DNA of 35,618 nucleotides from Nitrosomonadales bacterium (GTDB lineage: Bacteria; Pseudomonadota; Gammaproteobacteria; Burkholderiales; Gallionellaceae), in contig JANXWX010000014.1 in the NCBI GenBank assembly GCA_025350915.1, positions 1 through 35,618 on the forward strand, read 5' to 3'. A program made the translations under genes and the position numbers. Of the stretch, positions 87-35,618 are shown in pieces; the first letter of the stretch is position 1, and every line of letters starts with the position of its first letter. The notes beneath the pieces were generated by a model, which did not search any database, was not told the DNA's origin, and saw nothing but the letters and a program-made list of their open reading frames with translations.

Positions 87-278
87 TCATAGTTCCTTCG
101 TAATCGCCGAATTGATAGCATTTGCAATTATTAAGAAATACTCCGTGTCTATAACCTGTGAGGGTTCTTTTTTCCCGCCTACCAATATTGTGAGCAGAGT
201 AAATTCTGGGTGCACATGTGCCTGTTCGATGTTTTCACCATCGGTATGCAGGGTAATTGTGAAAGGTTCAAATTTCAT
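87..278 (-). CDS. Small conserved accessory protein (63 aa), left paralogue
   Basis: I do not recognise a function. The chosen ATG (278) follows a clear ribosome site, AGGAGAG, and skips a poorly supported upstream start. The protein begins MKFEPFTITLH and is very similar, residue for residue over about 58 positions, to the product at 33746-33964. The DNA similarity starts in the leader, in a shared pyrimidine-rich stretch before the ribosome site, and stops near the 3' end. It therefore looks like two copies of one mobile unit. It lies downstream of an attC-like site (303-389). It is soluble, with no membrane segment and no cysteine motif. Confidence 0.75.
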   Translation of the reverse strand: MKFEPFTITLHTDGENIEQAHVHPEFTLLTILVGGKKEPSQVIDTEYFLIIANAINSAITKEL

Positions 279-302
279 TTTCTCTCCTCGTAGTAAAAAG
301 AC

Positions 303-389
303 GCACAACCCATCAAGGCTGTATCTCCATTCCGTTTATCATTTGTGGCGGCTTTCATTGGGTTTTAGGGTGCCTATTCTGTGTTGGGC
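303..389 (-). repeat. attC-like recombination site (imperfect, 87 bp)
   Basis: Read on the minus strand it starts with GCCCAAC, fitting the integron R'' box RYYYAAC, and ends with GTTGTGC, a near match to the R' box GTTRRRY. Inner arms ATAGGC and GCCTTGAT can pair with bulges. The site overlaps the 3' end of the 87-aa gene and ends just before the leader of the 63-aa gene, where an integron attC should be. The R' box deviates by one base and the inner stem is weak, so this is the least certain of the three long sites. Confidence 0.4.
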
Positions 390-637
390 GTCGGCTCTGC
401 TAGCTCTACCACCGCCGCCATAATCATCATCATGTCCATGCCAATCAATTCACGTTTTTTGCAAACCTCAGTTGCTACTGCCAGTATGCTTTTTTTGTCA
501 CGGTCTGCTGTCATGCGCAAAATCTTTCCAAGCTCTGCCATGTGCGGCTTATACTTGTCGCCCAACAATCGCCGTGCCTTGTCACGCATGTCATAAAGTT
601 GTGCTGCCATGCTTACTTGCTGTTCAGTTGCCTGCAT
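374..637 (-). CDS. Hypothetical protein, 87 aa, in an attC-bounded unit
   Basis: Function unknown. The ATG at 637 has a GGAGAAC ribosome site. The product is helical and charged, with a Met-rich stretch near residue 70, and has no membrane segment or obvious fold. The unit carrying it begins with GTTGGGCGGC (minus strand, from 666) and its 3' end carries GACGCCCAAC (392-383), complementary at 9 of 10 positions. This is the relationship expected between the two ends of one integron cassette. The reading frame ends within the downstream attC-like site, as in many integron cassettes. Confidence 0.7.
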   Translation of the reverse strand: MQATEQQVSMAAQLYDMRDKARRLLGDKYKPHMAELGKILRMTADRDKKSILAVATEVCKKRELIGMDMMMIMAAVVELAEPTPNTE

Positions 638-659: not shown

Positions 660-720
660 GCCCAACCAGGCGGTCAAGCGGGACTGCCGCAAGCGTCAGC
701 CCCTTACCTCTGCGTTACGC
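660..720 (-). repeat. attC-like integron recombination site (61 bp)
   Basis: Minus-strand order: R'' GCGTAAC, spacer GCAGA, L'' GGTAAGGGGCTG, a 10-nt loop, L' CAGTCCCGCTTGACC, spacer GCCTG, R' GTTGGGC. L'' pairs with L' along its whole length, leaving three single unpaired bases in one arm. These match the extrahelical bases that IntI recombinases use to recognise folded attC strands. The length is in the normal attC range. R'' has one base outside the RYYYAAC consensus. The site overlaps the last codons of the 94-aa membrane gene and precedes the 87-aa gene. Confidence 0.75.
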
Positions 721-980
721 ATCTTGCGGTTAAGCAATCTGGTTAATCTTGGATGTGCCCACATGCTGGTCGTGATGCCAAACGGGCCACCCATGACGAA
801 GGCGGTGATCTCGCTCCAGCTTGCGTGCGGTGCCAGCTTGAACAGCACCATTTGGCTGCTGCCGATGGCAAAACTGGTTAAGGCAGCAGCCCAGTAGTGG
901 CCGTTGTTTACGTTGAGTGATTGCGCGCCGAGGGCAAATACTAGGATGAAGGTGCTGGCAAAGAGGGTGAGTTCGGTCAT
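696..980 (-). CDS. Small inner-membrane protein, 94 aa
   Basis: Two hydrophobic segments (about residues 5-22 and 30-48) and a short third stretch around 58-72 suggest an integral membrane protein with a basic C-terminal tail. The family resembles short proteins seen in early regions of betaproteobacterial phages; I know no function. It is the last gene of the compact PL operon before the attC-like array, and its 3' end runs into the attC-like site at 660-720. The ribosome site is weak (AAAGAAAA). Confidence 0.7.
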   Translation of the reverse strand: MTELTLFASTFILVFALGAQSLNVNNGHYWAAALTSFAIGSSQMVLFKLAPHASWSEITAFVMGGPFGITTSMWAHPRLTRLLNRKMRNAEVRG

Positions 981-4443: not shown

Positions 4444-4455
4444 CTGTGGTTTAAT
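4426..4455 (+). promoter_or_regulatory. Promoter PR for cro and the early rightward operon
   Basis: Rightward -35 TTGCAT (4426-4431), 18-bp spacer, -10 TTTAAT (4450-4455). The predicted start is near 4462, only about four bases before the cro ATG at 4466. The cro mRNA would therefore be leaderless or nearly so, in agreement with the absence of a ribosome site. Confidence 0.65.
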
Positions 4456-4465
4456 ATTTAGCATC

Positions 4466-4699
4466 ATGGAAATTAAAGAAATCACAAAAGGAAAATTGAC
4501 TGTCAAGGATGCCGCGCTGATATGCGATTTGTCCGTTCAGGCGATTTACAAATGGGAGAAAACTGGAAAGGTGCCGCCCGGGCATGTTATTGCGATTTCT
4601 CGCGCGACGGGCTGGCTTGTAACTCCTTACGATCTTCGCCCGGATATCTATCCGCATCCTGATGACGGGTTGCCTAAAATTCATGAGGCGGCAGCATGA
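4466..4699 (+). CDS. Cro/YdaS-like HTH regulator, 77 aa
   Basis: A helix-turn-helix spans about residues 12-34 (VKDAALICDLSVQAIYKWEK). It is followed by the turn and short tail typical of the YdaS-like Cro family, including the DLRPDIYP stretch. It is divergent from the CI-like gene. The ATG at 4466 lacks a ribosome site and lies beside the predicted PR start, so leaderless translation is likely. Its stop overlaps the next small ORF as ATGA. Role: represses PRM/PR early in lytic growth (family knowledge). Confidence 0.8.
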   Translation: MEIKEITKGKLTVKDAALICDLSVQAIYKWEKTGKVPPGHVIAISRATGWLVTPYDLRPDIYPHPDDGLPKIHEAAA

Positions 4700-4788
4700 A
4701 AAATATCTCCCCGAGCAGGGCCTTCGCGCAGCAATCGTCAGCAAACTGGCGACCTGCGCTTTTTTTATTTCAGCGAGGTGTGTTGTGA
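4696..4788 (+). CDS. Possible 30-aa coupled ORF after cro
   Basis: The ATG overlaps the cro stop (ATGA). The frame is open for 30 codons and its TGA overlaps the GTG start of the next ORF. The sequence is Ser/Ala/Arg-rich, with a hydrophobic tail, and shows no domain. It may serve mainly to couple translation. Confidence 0.3.
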   Translation: MKNISPSRAFAQQSSANWRPALFLFQRGVL

Positions 4789-4898
4789 GCAAAAAACTCA
4801 ATGTGTGCGCGGTTTGTTTTCCATCCAAATTGCCGTTGTCGTTGTTCATGCGTCAACTTTGCGACAAACGCGCGCGTCAGTCCACGTTAAAAAATTAG
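4785..4898 (+). CDS. Small cysteine protein, 37 aa (GTG start)
   Basis: The GTG at 4785 follows GCGAGG at good spacing. The product has a CAVC pair at residues 8-11 and a third Cys near 26, then a basic tail (DKRARQSTLKN). It resembles tiny zinc-binding proteins in early operons of related phages, but I cannot name it. It ends ten bases before the CII-like gene. Confidence 0.45.
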   Translation: MSKKLNVCAVCFPSKLPLSLFMRQLCDKRARQSTLKN

Positions 4899-4908
4899 GT
4901 GAAATAAC

Positions 4909-5364
4909 ATGCCAAGCAATGTAATCGATGCGGCCTACATGACTGCCCACGAATATCCAGGTGGCGCCACTGCGCTTGCGGTGCGCTTGGGGGTTAATGC
5001 AGCCGTTCTTTCAAATCGGCTCAATCCAAATAATAACGACCATCACCTGTATGTGCGCGACCTGATGGCCATCATGACCATCAGCGGGGACCATAGGGCA
5101 TTGCATGCGGCCTGCCTTGAGCTGGGTTATACGGCCATGCCATTACCAGATAGCAGCAGCAAGCAAACCACCTCAGAGGCATTGACCAGTACCTGCAAGG
5201 AGTTCTCGGACTATCTGCAGAGCGTAAGTGGTGCGCTGGCTGATAACAAGGTCACTGCGATAGAACTGCGCTGTGTGCGCCAACACTTGGGTGAGATGGT
5301 AGCTGCAGCAGGCAACCTCGAATCAATACTCGAAGCCATAGAGCAGAAGGCCATTCGCCCATGA
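4909..5364 (+). CDS. CII-like phage regulatory protein (151 aa)
   Basis: The N-terminal half (about residues 7-45) contains the atypical helix-turn-helix of the phage regulatory protein CII (CP76) family, seen in GGATALAVRLGVNAAVLSNR and the following NPNNNDHHLYVRDLMAIM. The C-terminal half is helical and probably oligomerises. The ribosome site AGGTGAAATAAC precedes the ATG. In P2- and lambda-like phages CII helps establish lysogeny or controls early transcription. Here it follows cro, as in lambda. Confidence 0.8.
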   Translation: MPSNVIDAAYMTAHEYPGGATALAVRLGVNAAVLSNRLNPNNNDHHLYVRDLMAIMTISGDHRALHAACLELGYTAMPLPDSSSKQTTSEALTSTCKEFSDYLQSVSGALADNKVTAIELRCVRQHLGEMVAAAGNLESILEAIEQKAIRP

Positions 5365-5564
5365 TGCGTCGCCCAATCCCCGCGCCCCTTGTTAGGCAAG
5401 CCGCTGTTGCTGGGCGATCAGTTGCACAAATTGCAACAAGCGTGCAACTCACCCCCCCCCGGGTATTGGGTCCTTCTGCCAACTTTCCCCTGCGGGTTAT
5501 TCGTATCACGGTTTTTCGGCAGGGTATGGCTTTTAAAATTTGGTCAACTGGGAACTTGGGCTGA
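5361..5564 (+). CDS. Hypothetical protein, 67 aa, spanning a C9 tract
   Basis: The ATGATG start overlaps the CII stop, and the TGA overlaps the next ATG (TGATG). Coupling on both sides supports real translation. The first 35 residues look like a small helix-turn-helix (IPAPLVRQAAVAGRSVAQIA). The rest follows a run of nine C (5452-5460) and looks less protein-like, so the frame after the run may be shifted. This stretch also resembles cos-flanking DNA. Confidence 0.4.
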   Translation: MMRRPIPAPLVRQAAVAGRSVAQIATSVQLTPPRVLGPSANFPLRVIRITVFRQGMAFKIWSTGNLG

Positions 5565-6334
5565 TGGATATTCAGGTTGACTTCAGTGATTTGGCGATGA
5601 ACCTCAAGGGCGATCTTGAAAATGTTCAAAAGCAAATCAATTTTGCCACGATGCGCGCGCTAAATGCCGGCGCATACAAGGCATCAAAGGATACAGCAAG
5701 GGAAATTGAGCAAGTTTTCAAAAGCCCGACACCGTGGGTTATGAGTTCTATTCGTTATCGCAAGGCAACCAAAGAAAAGCTGGAGTCACGAGTCGATTTT
5801 GATGGCTGGGGAAATAAGCAGGGCGTGACGGTTTCGCAAGTTTTGCGCGCAGAGATTGAGGGCGGCGAGCGACGCTTGAAGCGCCACGAAATTGCACTGC
5901 AACGGGCTGGCGTTTTGCCAGCAGGTATGGCAATTGTTCCTGGGCCTGCTTCACAAAAAGATTCCTACGGAAACATGCCCGTTTCGCAGATAAATCAGAT
6001 CATGTCGTATTTTCAGGCCTTCGGCCAGCAGGGCTACAGCGCAAACATGCGCGATGGCGGCAAGCGGCTGGCGCGCGGCAATAAAAAATCTGGCGCCCGT
6101 GGGTTTGTCTATTTTGTGCTGCAAAAGCCGCATGGAAAATTACATGCAGGCGTTTATCAGCGGGTGAGTTTTGGCGGGCTAGGCAGCGCAATCAAGCCAA
6201 TTATGTATTTTGTACCTATGCCTCGGTACAGAAAAGCTTTCGCTTTTTACACCATCGCATACCAATCAGGCCGGGAAGAGTTTAATAAACAATATCCAGT
6301 GATGCTGAGAGAAGCATTCAGGACGGCGCGATGA
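5564..6334 (+). CDS. Putative virion morphogenesis / minor tail-like protein (256 aa)
   Basis: The ATG at 5564 overlaps the upstream stop. Conserved-looking features are an N-terminal helical region, a central YGNMPVSQINQIMSYF motif, and a C-terminal GVYQR element followed by MYFVP. I associate this pattern with phage head-tail or minor tail proteins of unclear function. It is far from the other structural genes, between cII and the primase, which is odd. It may be an early-expressed structural or packaging accessory protein. Function not proven. Confidence 0.5.
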   Translation: MDIQVDFSDLAMNLKGDLENVQKQINFATMRALNAGAYKASKDTAREIEQVFKSPTPWVMSSIRYRKATKEKLESRVDFDGWGNKQGVTVSQVLRAEIEGGERRLKRHEIALQRAGVLPAGMAIVPGPASQKDSYGNMPVSQINQIMSYFQAFGQQGYSANMRDGGKRLARGNKKSGARGFVYFVLQKPHGKLHAGVYQRVSFGGLGSAIKPIMYFVPMPRYRKAFAFYTIAYQSGREEFNKQYPVMLREAFRTAR

Positions 6335-8772: not shown

Positions 8773-9040
8773 AGTGTTCCTATTAAAACAGCGAAGTGTT
8801 CCTATTAATAGGAACACTTTTACCCCTGTAAACACAGGGCTGTTCCTATTGTTCCTATTGTTCCTATCAAAAAACCATGTACGCGAGACGTGCGCACATG
8901 CACACGCGCGCATTGAAAATTTATTTATCTCTCTCACATACACGCGTAATAGGAACAATAGGAACAATAGGAACAGCCCTGTGTTTACAGGGGTAAAACT
9001 GTTCCTATTAATAGGAACACTTTTGAGGTTAATAGGAACA
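8773..9040. repeat. Putative replication origin: inverted repeat of iterons
   Basis: Arms 8794-8867 and 8949-9022 are 74-bp inverted repeats with one mismatch, separated by an 81-bp spacer that has a GC-rich half and an AT-rich half. The arms are built from a GTTCCTATT iteron. I count twelve copies in both orientations, six per side, including outer copies near 8775 and 9030. Three tandem copies at 9-bp spacing lie at each inner edge. The region is noncoding; open frames across it mirror each other because of the palindrome. Its position directly after the primase-helicase recalls the iteron origin of satellite phage P4. Confidence 0.75.
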
Positions 9041-9067: not shown

Positions 9068-9301
9068 ATGAATCTCCGCGAAGCCATGCCCATCGTCACC
9101 GAGTTCATCGACGCCTGCCGTGTCGCCTTTGGCGCTTCCAGCGTCAACGAAAGCATTAAGGCAGGAATGCAGGGCTTTGAAACGTTCTACGCCAGCGAAA
9201 ACGGCCACACCATCGGCACACCAATACCAGAGCCGAAGATTTACACCACCATGCGCCGCGACATTCAGCCGCTGGTCATCGCAAAGCGAGGCCGCCAATG
9301 A
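9068..9301 (+). CDS. Hypothetical protein, 77 aa
   Basis: Starts MNLREAMPIVTEFIDACR after an AAGGA site; the longer frame upstream runs through the origin palindrome and is rejected. The first 12 residues resemble the start of the 35-aa product at 32566-32673 (NLRESMPIVT), hinting at a shared short motif. The protein is soluble with no known domain. It ends with an ATGA overlap into the terminase small subunit gene. Confidence 0.7.
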   Translation: MNLREAMPIVTEFIDACRVAFGASSVNESIKAGMQGFETFYASENGHTIGTPIPEPKIYTTMRRDIQPLVIAKRGRQ

Positions 9302-9859: not shown

Positions 9860-10134
9860 CCCGCTTTACACGCCGCCCAAACTTGGACTACCATGCTCCC
9901 GCTGGCACAGATTGCCAGTCGGGTTTGGAAGCCCGAGAGTACGGCGGACAGGCCGCCAGCAAGCGGCCATTTTCACGTTCGTTAGCATCGCACCCAGTTT
10001 GGGCGGCGATGTGGGGAGCCTTCGGGCTCGCCGGTTCCGTCTCCCGGTCTTCCAACCTGCATCGCCGTCCTCCTTCATTTGGAAGTGAGCGAGGATGGCT
10101 TAATCAACCCGATACGGAGATTAACCATGTCTAA
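9856..10134 (+). CDS. Possible Ash-like ORF, 92 aa
   Basis: The frame starts MTRFTRRPN, is Arg/Ser/Gly-rich and low in order. It overlaps the rha start. Such ORFs upstream of phage regulators are often called Ash-family proteins. The same DNA is full of inverted repeats, so the real product may be RNA rather than protein. I cannot tell from sequence alone. Confidence 0.35.
   Translation: MTRFTRRPNLDYHAPAGTDCQSGLEAREYGGQAASKRPFSRSLASHPVWAAMWGAFGLAGSVSRSSNLHRRPPSFGSERGWLNQPDTEINHV
9871..10067 (+). ncRNA. Structured RNA leader upstream of rha
   Basis: A perfect 13-bp pair joins 9871-9883 (CGCCGCCCAAACT) with 9996-10008. A second perfect 8-bp pair joins 10004-10011 (CGGCGATG) with 10060-10067. 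These two share bases 10004-10008 and so exclude each other, as in an attenuator switch. Smaller hairpins occur inside (CTGGC/GCCAG at 9902-9918; GGCGG/CCGCC at 9943-9957). No T-run terminator is visible. Confidence 0.5.
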
Positions 10135-11073: not shown

Positions 11074-11139
11074 ATGAACGCCCCCATTTCACCCTCCGCC
11101 CACACCATCATGGCCACCGCCTGCGCCCGCGCCCTGCGC
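11074..11139 (+). pseudogene. Duplicated 5' end of the large terminase gene (66 bp)
   Basis: It matches 12315-12380 at 64 of 66 positions and encodes MNAPISPSAHTIMATACARA before the match ends. This is the original or the copied start of terL; the rest of the gene lies about 1.2 kb away after an antisense cassette. The frame stays open far beyond the match only because it runs antisense through the cassette genes. Confidence 0.85.
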
Positions 11140-12314: not shown

Positions 12315-14279
12315 ATGAACGCCCCTATTTCACCCTCCGCCCACGCCATCATGGCCACCGCCTGCGCCCGCGCCCTGCGCCCGCGTGAGCGCCTAACCGT
12401 CAGCCAATGGGCAGACCGGCACCGCATCCTCACCAGCAAGCAGTCCGGAGAGGCTGGCCGCTGGCGCACGGCGCGCAACCCCATGCTGCGCGAAATTATG
12501 GATTGCCTGTCGGCTCACTCCACCGTGCGCGAGGTGACGGTGATGAAATCCTCGCAGGTAGGTGTCACTGAAATGTCGGTGAACTGGATCGGCTACATTA
12601 TCGAGCATGCGCATTATCCGGCTATGGTGTTGATGCCCACGCTGGAGAGCCGCGACACCTGGAAGGCACAGAAGCTCAACCCGCTGCTGTCCGATACCGA
12701 ATGCGTGCGCGACATCCTCGGTGGCATCCGCTCGCGCGACGCGACCAACAGCAAAGATATGATCGACTACCCAGGCGGCATCCTGTTCCTGGCGGGCGGC
12801 AATTCGCCAAACAGCTACGCGCAAAAGTCGGTACGCTTTTTGATGCTGGACGATCTCGACCGCTTCCCGATGGTGGTCGGCGATGAGGGTGATCCGGTGG
12901 AGCTGGCGCGTAGTCGCGTAAAGGCCTTCCCGCGCTATAAAATTTTGCTTGCCAGTACGCCCACGCTCAAGGGTGCATCGTTGATCGAGCGCGAATACGA
13001 GGCGGGCGACCAGCGCCGCTACCAGGTGCCGTGCCCGCACTGCGGTGAGCGTCTGGTGCTGCGCTGGAGTAACGTCAAGGCCAACGCGCAGCTCACGGAG
13101 GCATGGTACCAGTGCGAGCATAACGGCTGCATCATTGAAGAGCACTACAAGCCCGCCATGCTGGCGGACGGTATATGGATACCCGAAAAGCCGGAGATAA
13201 AAAACCACCGAAGCTACCACATCAGCGCCATCTACGCCCCAATCGGCCTCGGCCCTTCCTGGCTCGACCTGATGATCCAGTTCAAGCGCGTGCACAAAGA
13301 CCCGCAGCAGCTCAAGACCTTCATCAACTCCAACCTGGGCGAGAGCTGGGAAGACCAAACCAACAAACTCAAACCGCACGACCTCGCCAAGCGCATGGGT
13401 GATCACACCCTCGGCATCATCCCGCCCGGTTGCCTGGCGCTCACCGTCGGCATCGATACCCAAGACAAATGGCTCGCTATCACCATGTTGGGCTGGGGCG
13501 CACCTGCGCACGAAAACGGCCCAGCCAGATTATGGATACTGGACTGGACTGAAATTCAGGGCGATACCACCAACCCCGAAGTATGGAATGAACTAGAGGC
13601 ATATCTCCATCGCCCGCTGCTAAACAGCTTTGGCAAGGAAATAAAAATACGTGCCGCCGCCATCGACTCACGCGGCCACCGCACAGAGCAGGTTAAGGAC
13701 TTCGTCATGCGCACCAGCTTGCGCATCCGTGTGTATTCCGTACAGGGCGCCACCAACCGCATCGGCCGTGCCATCGCCCAGGCCGGCAGCTACCCCAATA
13801 AAAATTATATTGGTAAAGTCATCAAGCATGGCTACTGTGTGTGGAACGTCGGTACTGAGCACTGTAAAGACTTTATCTTTGCCAACCTCGCCGCCGATGG
13901 CGAGCGTATTCCAAGCGATCGCGTTTTTAATTTTCCCCAAGGCCTTGAAGACGAATACTTCAACGGCCTGCTATCCGAAGTCTACGATCCAGAAAAAAAA
14001 CGTTACATCATGCGCATCGGCGCCAAACACAAGCGCAACGAACCGCTGGATACAGCGGTATATGCCTGGGCTATCGGCCACCACCGCGATATAAACATCG
14101 GAAGAGGCAGGGCAGGCAGGCCGGATCCAAAGTATTGGACGCGGCTGGAAGCGATGCTCGAAAGTGGGGAGACGGTAGAGGTACATGAGCCTACAACGCC
14201 ATATATTGCACCGCCTCAGCTAGCCGCCAAGCAATCCAGAAATCGTCCTCGCGTAATCAGGAAGGGACAGCATGATTAA
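12315..14279 (+). CDS. Terminase large subunit, GpA family (654 aa)
   Basis: Packaging ATPase and nuclease. A degenerate Walker A SSQVGVTE is at residues 79-86 and a Walker B-like MLDDLD at about 178-182. A zinc-like pair, CPHC at 240-243 with CEHNGC at 267-272, is typical of the lambda gpA family. The C-terminal half is the nuclease, with acidic residues in TVGIDTQDK and AAAIDSRG. The ATG at 12315 is chosen because GGAG lies 7 bases upstream; ATG 12303 is an alternative. GpA terminases cut at cos, so cohesive ends are expected. The first 66 bp are duplicated at 11074. Confidence 0.92.
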   Translation: MNAPISPSAHAIMATACARALRPRERLTVSQWADRHRILTSKQSGEAGRWRTARNPMLREIMDCLSAHSTVREVTVMKSSQVGVTEMSVNWIGYIIEHAHYPAMVLMPTLESRDTWKAQKLNPLLSDTECVRDILGGIRSRDATNSKDMIDYPGGILFLAGGNSPNSYAQKSVRFLMLDDLDRFPMVVGDEGDPVELARSRVKAFPRYKILLASTPTLKGASLIEREYEAGDQRRYQVPCPHCGERLVLRWSNVKANAQLTEAWYQCEHNGCIIEEHYKPAMLADGIWIPEKPEIKNHRSYHISAIYAPIGLGPSWLDLMIQFKRVHKDPQQLKTFINSNLGESWEDQTNKLKPHDLAKRMGDHTLGIIPPGCLALTVGIDTQDKWLAITMLGWGAPAHENGPARLWILDWTEIQGDTTNPEVWNELEAYLHRPLLNSFGKEIKIRAAAIDSRGHRTEQVKDFVMRTSLRIRVYSVQGATNRIGRAIAQAGSYPNKNYIGKVIKHGYCVWNVGTEHCKDFIFANLAADGERIPSDRVFNFPQGLEDEYFNGLLSEVYDPEKKRYIMRIGAKHKRNEPLDTAVYAWAIGHHRDINIGRGRAGRPDPKYWTRLEAMLESGETVEVHEPTTPYIAPPQLAAKQSRNRPRVIRKGQHD

Positions 14280-14293
14280 GGGAAAAATTTAAC

Positions 14294-14566
14294 ATGAGTG
14301 ACATTATTCGCCGCGCCGCAATCAATATTGTTAGCTCTAAAGCATTTTTAGACACGTTCAGCAATCTGCTGACAACAGAAATTGAACGCCAGCTGCGCGC
14401 AGAAGCGGGTGGCGATCGGCTTTATATTGCAAAAACCTGCGATAGTGCAGAAAAATGTGACCGTGACTCTCTTATAAAATCTGAGTTCACCGGCAATAAT
14501 CTTGCCCAGTTGGCAAAAAAACACAACCTCAGTCATAGGCAAATTCGCAGAATATGTAAAAAGTGA
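14294..14566 (+). CDS. Mor-like HTH protein, 90 aa
   Basis: The C-terminal third has the pattern of Mor/C transcription activators of Mu: SEFTGNNLAQLAKKHNLSHR followed by QIRRICKK, where the helix-turn-helix is about residues 66-88. A helical N-terminal region may dimerise. It sits inside the late operon between terL and the gpW-position gene, a likely place for a late-gene regulator. The stop is inside an 8-bp inverted repeat that recurs after the portal gene. Confidence 0.6.
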   Translation: MSDIIRRAAINIVSSKAFLDTFSNLLTTEIERQLRAEAGGDRLYIAKTCDSAEKCDRDSLIKSEFTGNNLAQLAKKHNLSHRQIRRICKK

Positions 14567-14590
14567 CATCCTTGGCTAAAGATGTCACAA
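14563..14590. repeat. 28-bp stem-loop repeat, copy 1
   Basis: Arms GTGACATC and GATGTCAC flank the loop CTTGGCTAAA. Copy 2 at 16712-16739 differs by one base in the loop. There is no T run, so it is not a clear terminator. The two copies bracket the gpW-position and portal genes. Confidence 0.8.
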
Positions 14591-15175: not shown

Positions 15176-16753
15176 ATGGCGAAAAACTGGTACAACGAAG
15201 CGCGCGTTAAGCAGCCTGGCAGTATCGTGCTAAAAGAGTGGAACGAAAAGCGCGAAAACGAGCGCAATATTGCCAACCGTGTGGCACAACATGCAGCCGC
15301 CCAAAAGCGCAGCTTTTCCGGTGGGTTGCCATCGCGCCTCACGGGCAGCTTCAACGCCTTCAACACCAGCCTGGATGCCGATCTCTACACCACGCTCAAT
15401 ACACTACGTGCGCGCAGCCGCCAGCTCACGCAAAACAATCCTTATGCGCAAAAGTTTCTGCGCATGGTCGCCAGCAACGTAGTAGGGCAGGGCTTCACCC
15501 TGCAAAATCGGGCCCAGGACAAAGGCCAACCAGATCAGATTGATTCAAAGGCAATAGAATCTTCCTTTGCTGCCTGGTCACGCCGTGGCCAATGTGACGT
15601 TACCGGGCAGCTTGCCTTTTCTGAGCTATGCCGATTGATCTTGCGCACTGTCGCGCAAGATGGCGAAGTGCTTATCCGGCGTGTGCGCGGCCGCAAGGTT
15701 AATAAATTTGGTTTTGCCCTGCAGATCCTCGATATAGATCGACTCATGGTGCAGGACCAGCGCAAGCTCGACAACGGCAACGTCGTGCGCATGGGCGTTG
15801 AGATCGATACCTTTGGCAAGCCAGTGGCTTATTGGGTGCGGCAGTCTCACCCCTATGATCCCTTTATGCAAATGACCGTGCCGACGATGGAGCGTATCCC
15901 GGCAGAGGATATTTTCCATTTTTTCATCCCGATGCGCCCCGAACAACGGCGCGGCGTGCCGTGGATGCACGCGGCGATCGAGCGGCTCTATCACATCGGT
16001 GAGCTGGACCAGTCCGCGTTGATCGCGGCGCGGAAAGGTGCGGATACCCTGGGATTTTTCACCTCACCAAATGGCTTGCCGCCAGATCCCAATTCATCAG
16101 GTAGCGATGCCCAGGCAATCGAGGTCAGTGTTCCCGGCACCTATGACACGCTGCCCGAGGGCTACGACTTTAAATCATACGACTCGAAATATCCCAACGA
16201 CGTTTACCCCACCTTCATCAAGTCTGCCTTGCGTGCTGTGGCTTCTGCCATCGGCGTGGCCTACAACGGCCTGGCGAATGATCTTGAGGGTGTTAACTAT
16301 TCAAGCATCCGCAGCGGCGTGCTGGAAGAACGCGAATTCTGGATGGAACTGCAAGATTGGTTTGCCGAGGCTTTCCTGATACCGCTGTATGAAGATTGGC
16401 TGTTAATGGCGCTTGGAAATGGCGCCATTGCCGGCCCAACCGGATTCCAGCTGCCTGCGACTAAATATCAAAAATTTGTCGCACATAATTGGCAGGGCAG
16501 ACGCTGGCAGTGGGTCGATCCGCTGGGTGATATGCAGGCCAACATTCTGGCGATGAATAACGGACTCAAGAGCCGCACGCAAATTTGCGCAGAAACTGGA
16601 GCCGATCGTGAGTCTGTCTGGCTAGAGTTGCAACGCGAAGCCGAAGAAATGAAAAAGATGAACCTTAATTTAGCCGGTCCGCCTGCAACCAATCCACCCG
16701 TACAAAATATTGTGACATCCTTGGCTGAAGATGTCACAAAAAATCAAGGATGA
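15176..16753 (+). CDS. Portal protein, lambda family (525 aa)
   Basis: Forms the dodecameric ring at the capsid vertex. The N-terminal ARSRQLTQNNPYAQKFLRMV and the following NVVGQGFTLQ match the lambda-type portal family, as do RRVRG, the GVPWMHAAIERLYHIGELDQ region and the C-terminal NLAGP tail. The length of about 525 aa is normal. The last codons run through the second 28-bp stem-loop repeat (SLAEDVTKNQG), so the repeat altered or supplies the C-terminus. Confidence 0.92.
   Translation: MAKNWYNEARVKQPGSIVLKEWNEKRENERNIANRVAQHAAAQKRSFSGGLPSRLTGSFNAFNTSLDADLYTTLNTLRARSRQLTQNNPYAQKFLRMVASNVVGQGFTLQNRAQDKGQPDQIDSKAIESSFAAWSRRGQCDVTGQLAFSELCRLILRTVAQDGEVLIRRVRGRKVNKFGFALQILDIDRLMVQDQRKLDNGNVVRMGVEIDTFGKPVAYWVRQSHPYDPFMQMTVPTMERIPAEDIFHFFIPMRPEQRRGVPWMHAAIERLYHIGELDQSALIAARKGADTLGFFTSPNGLPPDPNSSGSDAQAIEVSVPGTYDTLPEGYDFKSYDSKYPNDVYPTFIKSALRAVASAIGVAYNGLANDLEGVNYSSIRSGVLEEREFWMELQDWFAEAFLIPLYEDWLLMALGNGAIAGPTGFQLPATKYQKFVAHNWQGRRWQWVDPLGDMQANILAMNNGLKSRTQICAETGADRESVWLELQREAEEMKKMNLNLAGPPATNPPVQNIVTSLAEDVTKNQG
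16712..16739. repeat. 28-bp stem-loop repeat, copy 2
   Basis: Arms GTGACATC and GATGTCAC flank the loop CTTGGCTGAA. It is 27/28 identical to copy 1 (14563-14590) and is translated as the last part of the portal protein. Direct-repeat flanks of a two-gene module suggest a recombination boundary or a bound regulatory site. Confidence 0.8.
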
Positions 16754-31038: not shown

Positions 31039-31096
31039 TGGTGCCCGGGACCGGAATTGAACCGGTATGACCATTACAGTCGAGGGATTTTAAGTC
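31039..31096 (-). other. att core: 3' part of tRNA-Leu (TAA)
   Basis: On the minus strand, the sequence from GGACTTAAAATCCC through the variable arm and T-arm ACCGG/CCGGT to the acceptor CCCGGGC and ACCA matches the 3' part of a bacterial tRNA-Leu. The 5' half of the tRNA is missing; unrelated AT-rich DNA replaces it. The phage thus probably integrates into tRNA-Leu and restores its 3' end. The exact crossover is not visible. Confidence 0.85.
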
Positions 31097-31163
31097 CGCA
31101 TTCAAATTTAAATAAAACATTAGCTTAGATCAAAAACCGCTCCGCAAAATCTATTTTTTCGCG

Positions 31164-31278: not shown

Positions 31279-32313
31279 TTATTTTGTGGGTGTTACTTTT
31301 TTCCCGATCCTATCCCGCACATAGTGCTCGGTCATCGTAATTGTGGTGTGGCCAAGCTGGTCTTGTGCCTGGCGAATATCGCCGGTGGATTCGGCCTTGT
31401 CGGTTGCGGCTTTGGCGCGAATATCCCGTAGCTGGAATTTATCTTTGTCGATGCCAGCGGCAGTGCGCGCAGTGTCGAAGTGCCCGCACAGCATGTGATA
31501 GGTGAAGGGCTGGCCGTTGGCATCTATCACGAGGTGCAGGCTGTGCACTTTGAAAGTAGACTTGCGCAGGCGGATGCGTTCGACCAGGCTGGCCAGCTCG
31601 CCCTCGATGCTGATGCGCAGCTTCTTGCCGGTCTTGCGCTGCTTGACGTGCAGCAGGCCGTCTTTGATATCGGTCTCGGTCATGCCGAGCATGTCTGATG
31701 GCCGCTGGCCGGTGAGGTAGGCGAGATCCAACGCGTCTCGAAGCGGCTGACTGGCCAGCTGGTGCACAGCGCGGAACATATCATCCTCGATGTAAACGTC
31801 TGCGCGGCCTTTTTCGCTAAAACCTTTGATGCCGGCGCAGGGGTTGGGCTGGTCGGTATAGCCCCAGTTTCTGGCCATGTTCCAGATGTGGCTGAACAGG
31901 GCCTTTTCGCGGTTAGCGCGGGTTTTTGCGGCCTTGCGCCAGTCCATATACTGGCGGATGTGCAGGGGCTTGATGCCATCGAGTGGGGCGGGTGGGTTGT
32001 CAAAAAACTGGTAGAGATTGGCCAGCTCGCGCAGGTTGTCTTTTTGCGTAGCCGGCGCTTTACCGGGAAGCATCTCGCGGATGTAGCGTTCGGCGGCATT
32101 GCGGAAGGTGATGATGGCGCTGGACATGGCCTGGTCGATCTGTAGCTCTGCCCACTTCTTGATCGCCAGCGCATAGTCGCTGCCCAGGGGAATTTCCTTG
32201 CGCGGCTTGCCGCCGGCATCAAAATAATAAAACGTTTGCTTCCAGCGCGTGCGGGCGCGCATACGGGATGGAAGGTTGAGGTTTTTGGTCGGTTTGCGTC
32301 CCATGGCAGGCAT
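31279..32313 (-). CDS. int: Phage integrase, tyrosine recombinase (344 aa)
   Basis: Inserts the phage at tRNA-Leu. The start at 32313 has GGAGGTAGT; the longer frame upstream is rejected. The N-terminal basic arm-binding region (1-45) is followed by a SAM-like core-binding domain (about 75-165) and the catalytic domain. Catalytic residues: Arg204 (TGQRPSD), Lys227, Arg299 (LRDIRAKA), His322 (LGHTTITM) and Tyr331. The position normally His before the second Arg is Arg296, as in a known phage subgroup. It is unlike integron integrases, which carry an extra helix insert. Confidence 0.93.
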   Translation of the reverse strand: MPAMGRKPTKNLNLPSRMRARTRWKQTFYYFDAGGKPRKEIPLGSDYALAIKKWAELQIDQAMSSAIITFRNAAERYIREMLPGKAPATQKDNLRELANLYQFFDNPPAPLDGIKPLHIRQYMDWRKAAKTRANREKALFSHIWNMARNWGYTDQPNPCAGIKGFSEKGRADVYIEDDMFRAVHQLASQPLRDALDLAYLTGQRPSDMLGMTETDIKDGLLHVKQRKTGKKLRISIEGELASLVERIRLRKSTFKVHSLHLVIDANGQPFTYHMLCGHFDTARTAAGIDKDKFQLRDIRAKAATDKAESTGDIRQAQDQLGHTTITMTEHYVRDRIGKKVTPTK

Positions 32314-32338
32314 ACTACCTCCAGATTGGTTTGAATGT

Positions 32339-32569
32339 CTATTGTCGTAGTCCGCCCGCGATGACTGACGGTGTCCAAGTTGTTGGTTGTACCGGTGCAG
32401 ATATTCCACTATTTCCCTCAACAGCGGCGCGTGTGACTACTGGTCTGCCATGTCCGTTTATACGGAATACCATGCCCATGGTGCGCAGCTGGGTGATCTG
32501 CTTGTCCTTGAGGGCGAAGCCTGTCAGGTCGCGCAGCTCTTCGGGGGTTAGGAAAAGTGGAATGGTCAT
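32339..32569 (-). CDS. DUF4224-type small protein, possible excisionase (76 aa)
   Basis: The start MTIPLFLTPEELRDLTGFAL followed by KDKQITQLRTMGMVFRING matches the DUF4224 pattern, a short helix-turn-helix-like domain commonly encoded right upstream of phage integrases. It may direct excision or regulate int; this is inference by position. Start overlaps the 35-aa gene as ATGA. Confidence 0.75.
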   Translation of the reverse strand: MTIPLFLTPEELRDLTGFALKDKQITQLRTMGMVFRINGHGRPVVTRAAVEGNSGISAPVQPTTWTPSVIAGGLRQ

Positions 32570-32673
32570 GGTTTATTTAAACCTGCTGCCCATTTTCTGG
32601 CCTGGGTAAATATTTTGGTAATGGACGCGGTGACGATGGGCATCGATTCGCGTAGATTTGCGTGGGCGTTCAT
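32566..32673 (-). CDS. Tiny protein, 35 aa, sharing a motif with the 9068 gene
   Basis: Reads MNAHANLRESMPIVTASITK, then a basic helical end. The NLRESMPIVT stretch resembles NLREAMPIVT at the start of the 77-aa protein at 9068. It has no separate ribosome site; coupling to the upstream DUF1737 gene and the ATGA overlap with DUF4224 suggest translation. Function unknown. Confidence 0.5.
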   Translation of the reverse strand: MNAHANLRESMPIVTASITKIFTQARKWAAGLNKP

Positions 32674-32676
32674 GGT

Positions 32677-32874
32677 TCAGACGGCTTTTGCCATGGCGTG
32701 CGCGGCGAAGTAGTAGTCTTCACCCACCATCCCCTTAGGCAGCTTCATAAAAAACAGGCAGGCGGCACCCATGGGCAGCCAGCCTTCCGCCATTTGCTCA
32801 CTTACATCTTTCGCAAGGCATTCCAACGCTTCTGAAGCGTCCGTTCTTTGAACTTCCATGATCTTATATTTCAT
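32677..32874 (-). CDS. DUF1737-like protein, 65 aa
   Basis: The opening MKYKIMEVQRTDASEALECL and the QMAEGWLPMGAACLF motif match the small DUF1737 alpha/beta family found in phages and bacteria, of unknown function. GAGGTGCCAA precedes the ATG. The ribosome site lies inside the 3' end of the upstream gene, which overlaps it by 11 bp. It is the first gene after the last attC-like motif before int. Confidence 0.7.
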   Translation of the reverse strand: MKYKIMEVQRTDASEALECLAKDVSEQMAEGWLPMGAACLFFMKLPKGMVGEDYYFAAHAMAKAV

Positions 32875-33094
32875 TTGGCACCTCAATTTGGACGTTAGGC
32901 GCCTGCGGTCTTTCGCCATAAGCAAACCAAATTATTGTATTCAGCGCAGATTCGAATGGCGATGGCCCCATCTGAATGAGTTGATTGGGTGAAAAACAAT
33001 CTATTAATTTCGGCATCAAAATTTTCATGTGTCGATGCATTGACATGATTTTCGGCAATCCGGATTCTTTTATGGAATTTATTTTTACTTGCAT
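32864..33094 (-). CDS. Hypothetical protein, 76 aa, in a cassette-like unit
   Basis: The ATG at 33094 has GGAGAAAA. The unit begins GTTAGGCGC (minus strand from 33119) and its 3' end has GCGCCTAAC (32902-32894), a perfect 9-bp complement inside the coding frame. That is the signature of a circularisable integron cassette. The protein is helical and basic, with PSPFESALNTIIWFAYGERP in the last half; no domain recognised. Confidence 0.65.
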   Translation of the reverse strand: MQVKINSIKESGLPKIMSMHRHMKILMPKLIDCFSPNQLIQMGPSPFESALNTIIWFAYGERPQAPNVQIEVPNEI

Positions 33095-33112
33095 TATTTT
33101 CTCCGTGTTTGC

Positions 33113-33143
33113 GCCTAACCTGGCGCTCAACTATGCGTTATGT
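33113..33143 (-). repeat. Short attC-like site (31 bp), copy 1
   Basis: On the minus strand it runs from ACATAAC, GCATAG and GAGCG to R' GTTAGGC. It matches the 31-bp site at 33755-33785 at about two-thirds of positions, with identical spacing of the end boxes. Compared with the two full sites it lacks the inner stem. It overlaps the stop of the methyltransferase and precedes the 76-aa gene. Confidence 0.5.
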
Positions 33144-33749
33144 CAAAAACATCGCTATTTGTGCTGTCGCTTGCTCAAATCTCTTCTTAGCTGCTTCAAA
33201 ATAATCCTTGTCCAACTCGCACCCAACAAAATCAACCCCAAAATAGTGCGCGGCTATCGCACTGCTTCCGCTGCCGAGGTGTGTATCTAAAATCTTTTGC
33301 CCAGGCTTCGCATAGTTTGTTAAAAGCCATTCATAGAGCTTTATTGGTTTCTGGCAAACATGGATTCTTTTCTCTGTTGTATTTCTAATATGCTTAAAAA
33401 TCTTTGCATTCCTATCCATCGAAGTCCATGCCATCTCGCAATCTGCAAGAGTGTCCATGTGTGCAACTTTGTCCCAAATCAAAAAACATCTTGTCGGTGG
33501 CAAGTCAAAATAATTTCCACCCCAAACAATCTGATCCTTGCTTACCCTGCGAAGCTCATCAAAAAACTGCCTTCTAGGGGCAACGTCCCATGCAGAATCT
33601 GCCTTTGTCAGTTTCGCTGCCCATGTTCCACCGTTTGTTATTTTTTCCCCAAGACCATACGGCGGGTCAACAATCGCCAGATCAAAAGCTTTGTCTGGTA
33701 ATATTGCCATGTATGCCATGCAATCTATGTTCAAAAGTTCTATGCTCAC
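33138..33749 (-). CDS. Orphan DNA adenine/cytosine-N4 methyltransferase (203 aa)
   Basis: Class beta amino-methyltransferase: catalytic DPPY at 28-31 comes before the AdoMet-binding DTHLGSGSS at 155-163. There is no partner endonuclease nearby, so it is orphan. It may protect phage DNA from host restriction or regulate promoters. It is flanked by the two short attC-like sites, so it looks like a mobile cassette gene. The target sequence cannot be read from the protein. Confidence 0.88.
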   Translation of the reverse strand: MSIELLNIDCMAYMAILPDKAFDLAIVDPPYGLGEKITNGGTWAAKLTKADSAWDVAPRRQFFDELRRVSKDQIVWGGNYFDLPPTRCFLIWDKVAHMDTLADCEMAWTSMDRNAKIFKHIRNTTEKRIHVCQKPIKLYEWLLTNYAKPGQKILDTHLGSGSSAIAAHYFGVDFVGCELDKDYFEAAKKRFEQATAQIAMFLT

Positions 33750-33964
33750 TCTCGCCCTAACCCGTCGCTCGTGTTTGCGTTATCCGTCATCGCCGAATTG
33801 ACAGCATTTGCAATTATTAAGAAATACTTCGTGTCTATCACACGTGAGGGTTCTTTTGTCCCGCCTACCGACATCGTAAGCATAGTAAGTTCTGGGTGCA
33901 CATGTGCTTGTTCGATGCTTTCACCATCGTTATGCAGGGTAATTGTGAAAGGTTCAAATTCCAT
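33746..33964 (-). CDS. Small conserved accessory protein (72 aa), right paralogue
   Basis: Close homologue of the product at 87-278; it starts MEFEPFTITLH with an AGGATAG site. The similarity ends near residue 59, after which this copy runs into its attC-like tail (NANTSDGLGRE). The unit carrying it starts GTTATCCGTC (33995-33986) and ends GACGGATAAC (33788-33779), a perfect 10-bp complement. Function unknown; soluble. Confidence 0.75.
   Translation of the reverse strand: MEFEPFTITLHNDGESIEQAHVHPELTMLTMSVGGTKEPSRVIDTKYFLIIANAVNSAMTDNANTSDGLGRE
33755..33785 (-). repeat. Short attC-like site (31 bp), copy 2
   Basis: On the minus strand: R'' GGATAAC, GCAAAC, GAGCG and R' GTTAGGG. It lies over the 3' end of the right paralogue and just before the methyltransferase start. 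Its R'' is complementary to the R' at the start of the same unit (33995). It resembles 33113-33143. Confidence 0.55.
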
Positions 33965-33988
33965 TTTCTATCCTCGTAGTAAAAAGAC

Positions 33989-34044
33989 GGATAACCCGTC
34001 AATCAACCCGGACAGCTTCGCTGCCGGTGACTTCTGCGTTAAGC
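33989..34044 (-). repeat. attC-like integron recombination site (56 bp)
   Basis: Minus-strand order: R'' GCTTAAC (fits RYYYAAC exactly), spacer GCAGA, L'' AGTCACCGGCAGC, loop GAA, L' GCTGTCCGGGTTGATT, spacer, R' GTTATCC. L'' and L' pair over their length with an unpaired T and a short bulge. This gives an attC-like hairpin with extrahelical bases. It overlaps the end of the 95-aa gene and precedes the right paralogue unit. Confidence 0.7.
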
Positions 34045-34286
34045 GCCGAACAATCCCAGGCTTTATTGAATGCCCATATTGCTTTACGCGGGGTTTCCCC
34101 AAAGCCACAAATACCAGATTGAATATTATCTCCGTGCAAAACACACCAACGGTTTTCGTTCTGGAAAAGTCTCGGCTTTAGAATTGCAAACAAAGTCATT
34201 TCTTCCGCTTCCACTGCGGCATTAAGTCTGCTTTGCCCTATCTTGTCTTCCCAGAATATTTGTCGTATTTCAGCTTCATTCATCAT
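33999..34286 (-). CDS. Hypothetical protein, 95 aa
   Basis: MMNEAEIRQIFWEDKIGQSR start, with AGAGGTGAATT as ribosome site (second ATG possible). The centre, NRWCVLHGDNIQSGICGFGE, followed by TPRKAIWAFNKAW, looks like a compact alpha/beta fold of the type seen in small phage proteins. The 3' end runs into the attC-like site at 33989-34044. Function unknown. Confidence 0.7.
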   Translation of the reverse strand: MMNEAEIRQIFWEDKIGQSRLNAAVEAEEMTLFAILKPRLFQNENRWCVLHGDNIQSGICGFGETPRKAIWAFNKAWDCSALNAEVTGSEAVRVD

Positions 34287-34306
34287 AATTCACCTCTTGC
34301 AGTTGT

Positions 34307-34423
34307 TTATTTGTCATTCTGCGTTCGCGCCACCGGTTTTGAGTTCAGTGCAAACCCAAAAACGTGAGGTGCGAACCTACCAAGTGGAACATTGTTAACT
34401 AACCACATCGCGAATTTCCTCAT
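34307..34423 (-). CDS. Small hypothetical protein, 38 aa
   Basis: Reads MRKFAMWLVNNVPLGRFAPH followed by VFGFALNSKP. The Trp/Leu-rich, amphipathic start with the VNNVPLG motif resembles tiny proteins I have seen beside phage regulators and integrases, probably membrane-associated. It overlaps the upstream 16-codon ORF as ATGA. A GCGAACGCAGAA motif lies at its 3' end, like the attC-like starts. Confidence 0.6.
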   Translation of the reverse strand: MRKFAMWLVNNVPLGRFAPHVFGFALNSKPVARTQNDK

Positions 34424-34470
34424 GCTTGTTGTGAAACCATGAATACCATTACTCTCTCAGCTTCCGTCAT
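34420..34470 (-). CDS. Possible 16-aa coupled ORF
   Basis: MTEAERVMVFMVSQQA. Its ATG overlaps the stop of the 26-aa ORF (TAATG) and its TGA overlaps the next ATG. It is probably a link in translational coupling. Confidence 0.3.
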   Translation of the reverse strand: MTEAERVMVFMVSQQA

Positions 34471-34550
34471 TATCTTCCCTTTCTTCGATTATTTCCCAAG
34501 CATGCGTTCAACTCGAACCATGCAATATCATATTTCTCTGTTACCAACAT
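34470..34550 (-). CDS. Possible 26-aa ORF
   Basis: MLVTEKYDIAWFELNACLGN start with GGAGATAAAATC as ribosome site. The frame is short but is linked by overlaps to the next two small ORFs. No domain. Confidence 0.4.
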   Translation of the reverse strand: MLVTEKYDIAWFELNACLGNNRRKGR

Positions 34551-34554
34551 GATT

Positions 34555-34779
34555 TTATCTCCGAGGTAATCTGCCTGCTAATAGCAGCGGCCTGCCGCTT
34601 ATCTTTGCGTTCGGCACCCGCCATGCTTGCCATGCGACCAATAGCGCAAAACTCTGAAACCAGCTTCTATCAACAGCCACACCCCAGTTTGGGGCATCCT
34701 TGAAAAAATACTGGTACGAAAAGTTTGCTATCACCATCGACAATATTGTAGTCATTACTTGAATCCAGTTATTCCGCAT
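34555..34779 (-). CDS. Small single-span membrane protein, 74 aa
   Basis: The ATG at 34779 has a GGGGG-rich site. A hydrophobic segment (about residues 8-25) and a second, weaker one (about 42-52) are followed by a basic tail that reads through an attC-like motif: GCCGAACGCAAAG, then AGCGG/CCGCT. The tail may therefore be partly a by-product of the recombination site. Function unknown. Confidence 0.6.
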   Translation of the reverse strand: MRNNWIQVMTTILSMVIANFSYQYFFKDAPNWGVAVDRSWFQSFALLVAWQAWRVPNAKISGRPLLLAGRLPRR

Positions 34780-34787
34780 TACACCCC

Positions 34788-34859
34788 CTATTGTTTAGTA
34801 ACCAACCTGACAAATTCAATCACTTCAGCAGGCAATCCATCTACCAAGAACTCATCCAC
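34788..34859 (-). CDS. Possible 23-aa ORF (GTG start)
   Basis: Reads MDEFLVDGLPAEVIEFVRLV if GTG is the start. The ribosome site is weak. It looks protein-like and fills the gap between two larger genes of the same strand. Confidence 0.35.
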   Translation of the reverse strand: MDEFLVDGLPAEVIEFVRLVTKQ

Positions 34860-34879
34860 TCTTTAGTTATTGATATACG

Positions 34880-35143
34880 CTATGCGTTAGGAATGATTGG
34901 TTTTACTTCCAGTATTTCCATTTTATTGTCGAGTGCCTCTTGCCAACATTCAGCGCAAGCAGGAAGTTCCTCAATTTTTTCTTGTTCCACTCTCAATACG
35001 ACAATCGCATTGTTGTCACATTGCGCCCATTTAACAGGCCCGAATGTGAATGCTCCCCCGTAGCGTCTCCAACCCTCGCATCTCATCCCTAACCCTACGG
35101 TCAAGTCGCCAGCGTCTCTGTTTTCGGTTTGTGATTGTTCCAT
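34880..35143 (-). CDS. Hypothetical protein, 87 aa
   Basis: The ATG at 35143 has AAGGAGTGATAAAA; an upstream GTG is less likely. It is acidic, with a Trp-rich centre (MRCEGWRRYGGAFTFGPVKW) and a CAEC pair near residue 64 that might bind a metal ion. The 3' end carries CCTAACGCATAG, like the attC-like starts. Function unknown. Confidence 0.65.
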   Translation of the reverse strand: MEQSQTENRDAGDLTVGLGMRCEGWRRYGGAFTFGPVKWAQCDNNAIVVLRVEQEKIEELPACAECWQEALDNKMEILEVKPIIPNA

Positions 35144-35187
35144 TTTTATCACTCCTTTTTAGTTGTTGATCGGTTGCCGAACTTTAA

Positions 35188-35334
35188 TCACGACTCGTTT
35201 CTTTCTAAACCTTGGCATTCCGGTTCTTCGGCAGCATGGCAGTTAATTTCTCCGCAGAGTTGACACTCGGTATGGGTCAATGCCGATAACGGTCCCTTCC
35301 AAATAACTACTCCACCACATATGCTACAAATCAT
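35188..35334 (-). CDS. Small zinc-ribbon protein, 48 aa
   Basis: MICSICGGVVIWKGPLSALT start, with a first CSIC pair (3-6) and a second CQLC pair (24-27), typical of a zinc ribbon; further Cys at 32 and 40. The site AAGGAAGCTGTA is good. It is too short to be an enzyme and probably acts as a nucleic-acid or protein-binding element. Function unknown. Confidence 0.7.
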   Translation of the reverse strand: MICSICGGVVIWKGPLSALTHTECQLCGEINCHAAEEPECQGLERNES

Positions 35335-35421
35335 TACAGCTTCCTTTCTTCTTTAAAGTTGCGTTATTTTATCGCTGTTTTGGTTATAACGCGTAAAATT
35401 CCATAGCTACTCCAAGCATCT

Positions 35422-35618
35422 CTATCTGTCTCTATCTCTATCTATATAACAACGCATTTCAGCAATATGGTCTCTGAGGGACTCATGCTGTCTTTCAACT
35501 TCCGCTTCCAGTCTTTTAACTTCGTTTTCAAGCCTTTCAATCACCGGGCGCATCGCATCTTCAAATTCTTGGCGTTGCTGTAATGCCAAAGCCTTTTCCA
35601 AACAAGGCTTACATAACA
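35422..35618 (-). CDS. Partial coiled-coil protein, cut by the window edge (at least 65 aa)
   Basis: The frame is open at the right edge. It begins here with LCKPCLEKALALQQRQEFED and has a CxxC pair, then a strongly heptad-patterned helix (IERLENEVKRLEAEVERQHE). It ends in a repeat of DRDRDR encoded by a TCTATC microsatellite. If the molecule is circular, the start would lie at the left edge, but no ATG is in this frame there. A TTG or an internal ATG is then possible. Confidence 0.5.
   Translation of the reverse strand, partial: LCKPCLEKALALQQRQEFEDAMRPVIERLENEVKRLEAEVERQHESLRDHIAEMRCYIDRDRDR

Follow-up and report, generated by a model that had tools for sequence, protein, structure and literature searches.

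Clusters of attC sites that lack an integron integrase (CALINs) have been described in the phages TJE1, PH101, P12002L and MW202573 (Qi et al. 2023, PMC9892861). In that work, attC sites of three phages other than the one studied here were assayed and five of six were substrates of IntI1, and the cassettes of TJE1 and PH101 were described as typically oriented, with inverted polarity unmentioned (PMC9892861). Here we describe a CALIN borne by a tailed temperate phage on contig JANXWX010000014.1 of a Nitrosomonadales bacterium (Gallionellaceae), which was analysed over its entire length of 35,618 nucleotides (the window, contig C212 of an assembly of 2.97 Mb in 263 contigs). The phage is lambda-like, and its genes were annotated from Pfam and PHROG profile matches. 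Its array is like the described phage CALINs in that attC clusters without intI carry methyltransferase cassettes, and MW202573 has three sites of the window's attC family, but in the window and in most phages of its attC type the genes lie on the bottom strand. Phage CALINs themselves were already known, and the new part is the inverted polarity, of which no report was found in the literature searched, with subscription papers and preprints lying outside that search.

In the textbook arrangement of an integron, the top strand of an attC site carries the cassette gene, and the relative polarity of the two is normally fixed. The sedentary chromosomal integrons of the host's family have the same attC type as the window, a 63-nt hairpin (AGGGGC...GTCCC[G/T]CT[T/C]GA) with extrahelical T and G, but they possess intI, hold 54 of 62 cassettes on the top strand and rarely show AACGC after the R box (5 of 97 sites). 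The moron regions of lambdoid PL operons are also alike, with small variable genes that lie between the early leftward promoter and xis/int and are shuffled among phages; these regions are not known to carry integron attC sites between their genes.

An attC array in the leftward accessory region

We took attC sites from integrons found in other members of the host's family, where 83 of 158 genomes had an IntI that passed the curated cut-off, and built the covariance model R1 (22 pairs) from 17 attC sites of other genomes, with no sequence of the window or of the host genome. The R1 structure consists of two helices with extrahelical T and G and is supported by covariation, and the asymmetry of the model allows the attC strand to be called unambiguously. 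R1 was used instead of a hand-written attC grammar, which was too strict and missed the site at 660-720. With filters off, the window gave three matches (54.7, 34.4 and 17.7 bits), all on the minus strand and each overlapping the 3' end of a leftward gene, which bears out the attC-like character that the original prediction, made from the letters alone, had given to these junctions. Across the 2.97-Mb host genome R1 found 11 sites: three in the window, two on C116 (a second phage contig), one on C201 beside an intact intI, and five spread over C105, C181 and C16. The surroundings of integrases related to that of the phage, 1.94 Mb in all, yielded a single site, and false positives are therefore rare. 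The sites of the window are:

660..720, minus strand: attC, 61 nt, R1 54.7 bits, E 2.3e-12, overlapping the 3' end of gene 696-980
33989..34044, minus strand: attC, 56 nt, R1 34.4 bits, E 5.3e-7, overlapping the 3' end of gene 33999-34286
33113..33143, minus strand: short attC with both R boxes, inner hairpin lost, R1 17.7 bits, E 0.013, at the 3' end of the methyltransferase gene
33754..33784, minus strand: degenerate attC remnant GATAACGCA...GGGTTAGGGC with both R boxes, hairpin absent, read from the sequence with no R1 score
303..389, minus strand: possible degenerate attC between genes 374-637 and 87-308, R1 12.1 bits, E 0.42

The anatomy of attC (RYYYAAC/GTTRRRY boxes, L boxes, extrahelical bases and a variable loop) is fullest in 660-720, which shares 79% identity with an attC site of C116 from one R box to the other. 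The hairpin of 33989-34044 reads CCGG-CAGC-GAA-GCTG-T-CCGG with one extrahelical T; this site has no standard L-box pair, yet it scores 34.4 bits, and its core is 89% identical to C116:14162-14198. The short form of the 33754-33784 remnant recurs in C116 (L005:7101-7133), and positions 308-385 are 91% identical to C116:13568-13645, the match ending at the GTT of the R box. More generally, C212 and C116 have short segments in common, with boundaries at R boxes or within gene starts. C116, which belongs to the same host, has an inverted cassette array of its own (L005:5588-7620). On this contig, 96 bp of a gene start are directly repeated without a mismatch (14073 and 14740), and truncated gene starts lie beside the attC sites.

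The original prediction had relied on the motif YAACGCA (TGCGTT on the plus strand), placed at 33134, 33776, 34035, 34320, 34606, 34883 and 711. TGCGTT is found at all seven positions, and additionally at 34503 and 35360. Over the entire window and both strands it is not enriched (26 observed, 30 expected), and we rejected this whole-window count as uninformative about the array. Within 32864-35618, the plus strand has 8 copies against 1.2 expected and the opposite strand has 1, and none of 5000 dinucleotide shuffles of this segment reached 8. The motif lies at most 60 bp from the stop of 6 of 13 leftward open reading frames (ORFs) in and around the array, versus 2 of 29 rightward genes. That the motif is followed by a spacer box of attC type is true of some positions: R1 scores a site at 711, at 34035 and, in truncated form, at 33134. 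At 33776 both R boxes are present without a hairpin, whereas 34320, 34606 and 34883 show the motif but no second half that can be recognised, and 34512-34615 scores no more than 9.3 bits. About half of the seven motifs, not more, thus belong to a recognisable attC. Because 33776 has lost its hairpin and 34320, 34606 and 34883 are motif-only, we conclude that the array is real but partly decayed.

A CALIN has at least two nearby attC sites. In the window, 33989-34044 and the truncated 33113-33143 are 850 bp apart and 660-720 lies across the circle, the number of full sites counted depending on circularity. There is no intI near the array: the best IntI match is the phage integrase, at 21 bits against a cut-off of 265, and its identification as IntI was rejected on this score. 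The array is not a complete integron with intI and attI in cis, as the contig has no intI; attI was not searched for separately. An Rfam scan reported no attC family, only tRNA and C4 RNA. The window array is a CALIN borne by a phage. The same genome encodes an intact integron integrase at C201:490-1431 (479 bits), beside an attC site at the contig end. A second intI of this genome, at C172:204-1105, is frameshifted.

Cassette genes run against the usual attC polarity

The array genes make up a leftward accessory region, bounded by the early leftward operon on one side and xis/int on the other, and the two contig ends each hold a part of this one region, as had been proposed on the basis of their common orientation and a gene duplicated between them:

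33138..33749, minus strand: cassette gene, orphan DNA N6/N4 methyltransferase (PF01555, E 2e-16; PHROG 67)
33746..33964, minus strand: cassette gene with no assigned function, duplicated at 87-308
33999..34286, minus strand: cassette ORF with no assigned function, stop inside attC 33989-34044
34555..34779, minus strand: cassette ORF with no assigned function, YAACGCA motif at its 3' end, no full attC
34880..35152, minus strand: cassette ORF with no assigned function, YAACGCA motif at its stop, no full attC
35188..35334, minus strand: cassette ORF with a homologue in viral contig L370 (65% over 46 aa)
87..308, minus strand: second copy of gene 33746-33964 (33785-34002 versus 99-316, 90% nucleotide identity)
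374..637, minus strand: cassette ORF following attC 660-720, ribosome binding site present
696..980, minus strand: holin-like gene (phrog_7045, E 2e-9), 3' end within attC 660-720

The methyltransferase is 48% identical to a methylase in the CALIN of phage TJE1. The L370 homologue of ORF 35188-35334 is flanked by two attC sites with the same inverted polarity. No relatives of the protein of 33746-33964 were found in viral contigs.

Both the genes and the attC bottom strands of the window run leftward, so that the cassettes do not have the typical polarity, a point that the original prediction had missed. We compared this arrangement with host-family integrons, where 54 of 62 called cassettes are canonical (on the attC top strand) and 8 inverted, and with viral contigs of the R1 attC type. 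When IMG/VR was scanned with a pattern for both arms of the window's attC type, at least 120 stretches matched, many of which, among the matches listed, hold R1 arrays of 3-12 sites. By the same calling procedure, and likewise among the matches listed, 92 of 125 viral cassettes are inverted (bottom strand) and 33 canonical; the contrast between phage and host-family polarity has an odds ratio of 18.8 (Fisher p = 1e-15). Of the 32 viral contigs in which one polarity is in the majority, 26 are inverted, as are the window, C116, L079 and L086.

A homology test that involved no gene prediction gave the same direction. For viral contigs without intI, we took the longest ORFs between adjacent attC sites: matches to 30 PHROG and 7 Pfam families were obtained with the 49 bottom-strand ORFs and none with the 41 top-strand ORFs. 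The Pfam matches include Dam, Tad2-like, RNA ligase, DHHA1 and GIY-YIG, among others, and the PHROG matches include methyltransferases and HNH endonucleases. The two polarities occur within one host genome, in which the chromosomal cassettes on C105 and C16 are canonical in our reading and those of the two phages inverted. The complete circular P22-like phage MW202573, whose GenBank annotation is independent, has three R1 sites (63.9, 55.4 and 45.7 bits), and every annotated gene in its attC stretch lies on the bottom strand. Phage TJE1 is canonical, the strand of its genes having the extrahelical C in the left arm; the inversion is therefore neither universal in phages nor forced by the method.

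Conservation of phage attC sites and separation of cassette pools

Among 150 attC sites of phage contigs, the AAC/GTT cores are conserved at 99-100%, the extrahelical G at 95% and the extrahelical T at 87%, percentages that lean towards the model, to which the alignment was fitted; shuffle and slide controls fall far below. The covariation score is 0.446 versus 0.142 after shuffling, and cells changed on both sides number 561 versus 186. Conserved cores, extrahelical bases and covarying pairs are features of substrates for recombination through the bottom strand.

Protein-level matches between cassettes of different phage contigs amount to 24 pairs (some with overlapping entries), inverted on both sides except for two tiny shadows of nucleotide identity. 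A viral cassette and a cassette of a host-family integron matched in one case only, and there both are canonical. AACGC follows the R box in 78 of 209 phage sites versus 5 of 97 host sites, a phage-biased variant; both the pool and the motif comparisons mix taxa, with unmatched samples. Transfer of the window's cassettes from host to phage was considered and dropped, as no shared cassette was found.

attP and attB support an excised circular phage

The early genes of the phage run leftward at the left end of the contig, and the integrase and excisionase genes, also leftward, lie at the right end. The rightward genes encode a CII-like activator, primase, terminase, portal, head and tape-measure proteins. 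The elements of integration are:

31039..31097, no strand: attP core, 59 bp identical to the 3' part of the host tRNA-Leu
31279..32421, minus strand: phage tyrosine integrase, not IntI (Pfam PF00589; PHROG integrase)
32339..32569, minus strand: excisionase (phrog_8896, E 9e-17)
C232:19118-19176 (L100): attB in the intact host tRNA-Leu gene

The attP core is located between the last rightward genes and int, and the succession from rightward genes through attP to int is uninterrupted. Since attP is uninterrupted in the contig and the tRNA-Leu attB is intact in the host, the contig is the excised circular form of the phage, opened inside the accessory region, and not a prophage cut from the chromosome. 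The circular molecule that had been postulated is in this respect supported by attP and attB, but the exact join of the ends is unproven in the contig sequence. Joining 35618 directly to 1 gives a right-end reading frame without a start codon across the join and restores no intact gene, and some sequence may therefore be missing there; no contig bridging the window ends was found in the assembly. On C232, the attB precedes a broken integrase that belongs to another element, and the tRNA-Leu site is therefore shared.

Arrays in other phages

The closest relatives of the phage integrase are Nitrosomonadales and Gallionella records. Two viral contigs with integrases 57-65% identical to that of the window phage (best aligned part), L079 with seven attC sites and L086 with at least three, carry arrays directly upstream of int with the polarity of the window, and L079 carries two methyltransferases. 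L086 also contains several tandem paralogues (4444-5984) with the C-terminal motif YWS.TQHAG..S..AW.Q.F..G.....Y.KSCECRARPVR, possibly receptor-binding or variable proteins. The array is not a general trait of phages with this integrase family, as 155 of the 156 further loci that were scanned have none; these include L183 and L184, the closest by integrase, and arrays therefore come and go. In the IMG/VR set, phage context is certain for arrays beside terminase, portal and head genes (L288), RecE and a phage integrase (L331), NinG and a primosomal protein (L308), RecE and RecT (L270), and a tail protein (L296).

Mechanism and alternative explanations

In our judgement the window is probably an excised circular lambda-like phage with a CALIN of inverted moron cassettes, shuffled by the IntI of its host and kept as a variable store of morons and counter-defence genes. 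The predicted bottom-strand attC hairpins would be recognised in trans by host-encoded IntI, through which cassettes could be gained, lost and shuffled, and co-resident phages, here C212 and C116, may exchange them. The hairpins that phage attC sites keep make such IntI-mediated exchange in trans likely. Being co-directional with the leftward operon of the phage, the cassettes would be expressed from it, and the methyltransferases of the window, C116 (L005:7078-7614) and L079 may protect against restriction.

A gene and its attC site move together, and IntI recombination therefore cannot invert one against the other. It follows that the genes either became cassettes in the inverted state or were selected as rare inverted cassettes, because only these are readable from the phage operon. 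The reversed polarity may reflect selection for expression from that operon, in a cassette lineage apart from the host's. Inversion places the recombinogenic bottom strand of attC on the coding strand of the phage operon; recombination could thereby be tied to phage transcription, and phage genes within host integrons could stay silent or unselected. As the genes are reversed in the window and in most related viral arrays, we suggest that phages keep a pool of exchangeable, partly anti-defence cassettes of their own. The fuller proposition, that this inverted-polarity pool is exchanged through host IntI and largely separate from the canonical bacterial pool, is tentative, and we lean somewhat against it.

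A pool of opposite polarity bears on the question of how genes acquire attC sites and become cassettes. A second pool concentrated in phages (methyltransferases, an anti-defence protein, nucleases) would indicate either that cassettes arise by a further, distinct route or that polarity is under strong selection in phages. Integrons would then be shared ground in the conflict of phages and hosts, the hosts storing cassettes and the phages perhaps storing counter-defence cassettes by means of the host integrase.

Several points weigh against this interpretation. Only two full attC sites and one truncated site are clear in the window, several junctions being motif-only, and the array may be largely decayed. 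The polarity survey covers one attC family with mechanical gene calling, its host-integron control set comes from one bacterial family, and the IMG/VR contigs may include some chromosomal integrons (four array contigs among the matches listed carry intI). Finally, no cassette common to the window phage and host-family integrons was found.

The array could instead be a fossil, with cassettes that the phage lineage captured a single time and attC sites reduced to short conserved linkers, at which morons are reassorted by ordinary homologous recombination when phages co-infect, IntI being uninvolved at present. The lost hairpins at several window junctions, the short segments shared with C116 that start or stop at R boxes and gene starts, and the truncated gene starts that C116 retains all agree with this. 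Against it, the extrahelical G and T and the compensating pairs are maintained in the 150 phage sites, and such extrahelical bases matter for bottom-strand recombination, not for homology; moreover, arrays with as many as 12 sites and unrelated genes occur frequently among the matches listed. We regard a fossil array as rather unlikely, though the most serious of the alternatives. It appears improbable that a standard CALIN without any particular polarity was taken up passively from a host integron, in the manner of Vibrio anguillarum prophages. Phage CALINs are known (PMC9892861) and TJE1 is canonical, as passive uptake would have it, but cassettes from host integrons would stay canonical, whereas the genes of the window and of the 26 majority-inverted viral contigs are inverted, and the phage-phage protein matches (the two small shadows aside) pair inverted with inverted cassettes, the single host-family match canonical with canonical. 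Least probable is that the hairpins are transcriptional or mRNA elements, such as terminators or stabilisers, that merely resemble attC. They do occupy the ends of genes within an operon, and their sequence also folds as RNA, but the attC-specific R boxes (AAC/GTT) and the extrahelical bases are almost invariant, and R1 was derived from integron attC sites adjoining intI. No T-run follows the hairpins, and a terminator-like reading was rejected for this reason.

Other features of the phage genome

The early leftward region contains a tRNA-Met (CAU) gene at 2714-2789 on the minus strand. Between the primase gene and the next gene lies a near-palindrome of 266 bp (8775-9040), in which repeated TGTTCCTATT / AATAGGAACA units flank a short centre; it is possibly a replication origin or a regulator-binding array. 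A C4 antisense RNA is predicted at 9996-10075 (Rfam RF01695, 58.7 bits), as in immunity regions of the P1/P7/N15 type. Two adjacent genes have a direct repeat of 66 bp (97%; 11074-11139 and 12315-12380) at or close to their starts, which encodes a common N-terminal stretch. The 28-bp repeat GTGACATCCTTGGCT(A/G)AAGATGTCACAA occurs at 14563-14590 and 16712-16739, both copies being hairpins at boundaries around the portal and head genes. An inverted repeat of 38 bp (87%) links an early gene (9071-9108) with the region beside xis (32621-32658) and is perhaps the remnant of a gene duplication.

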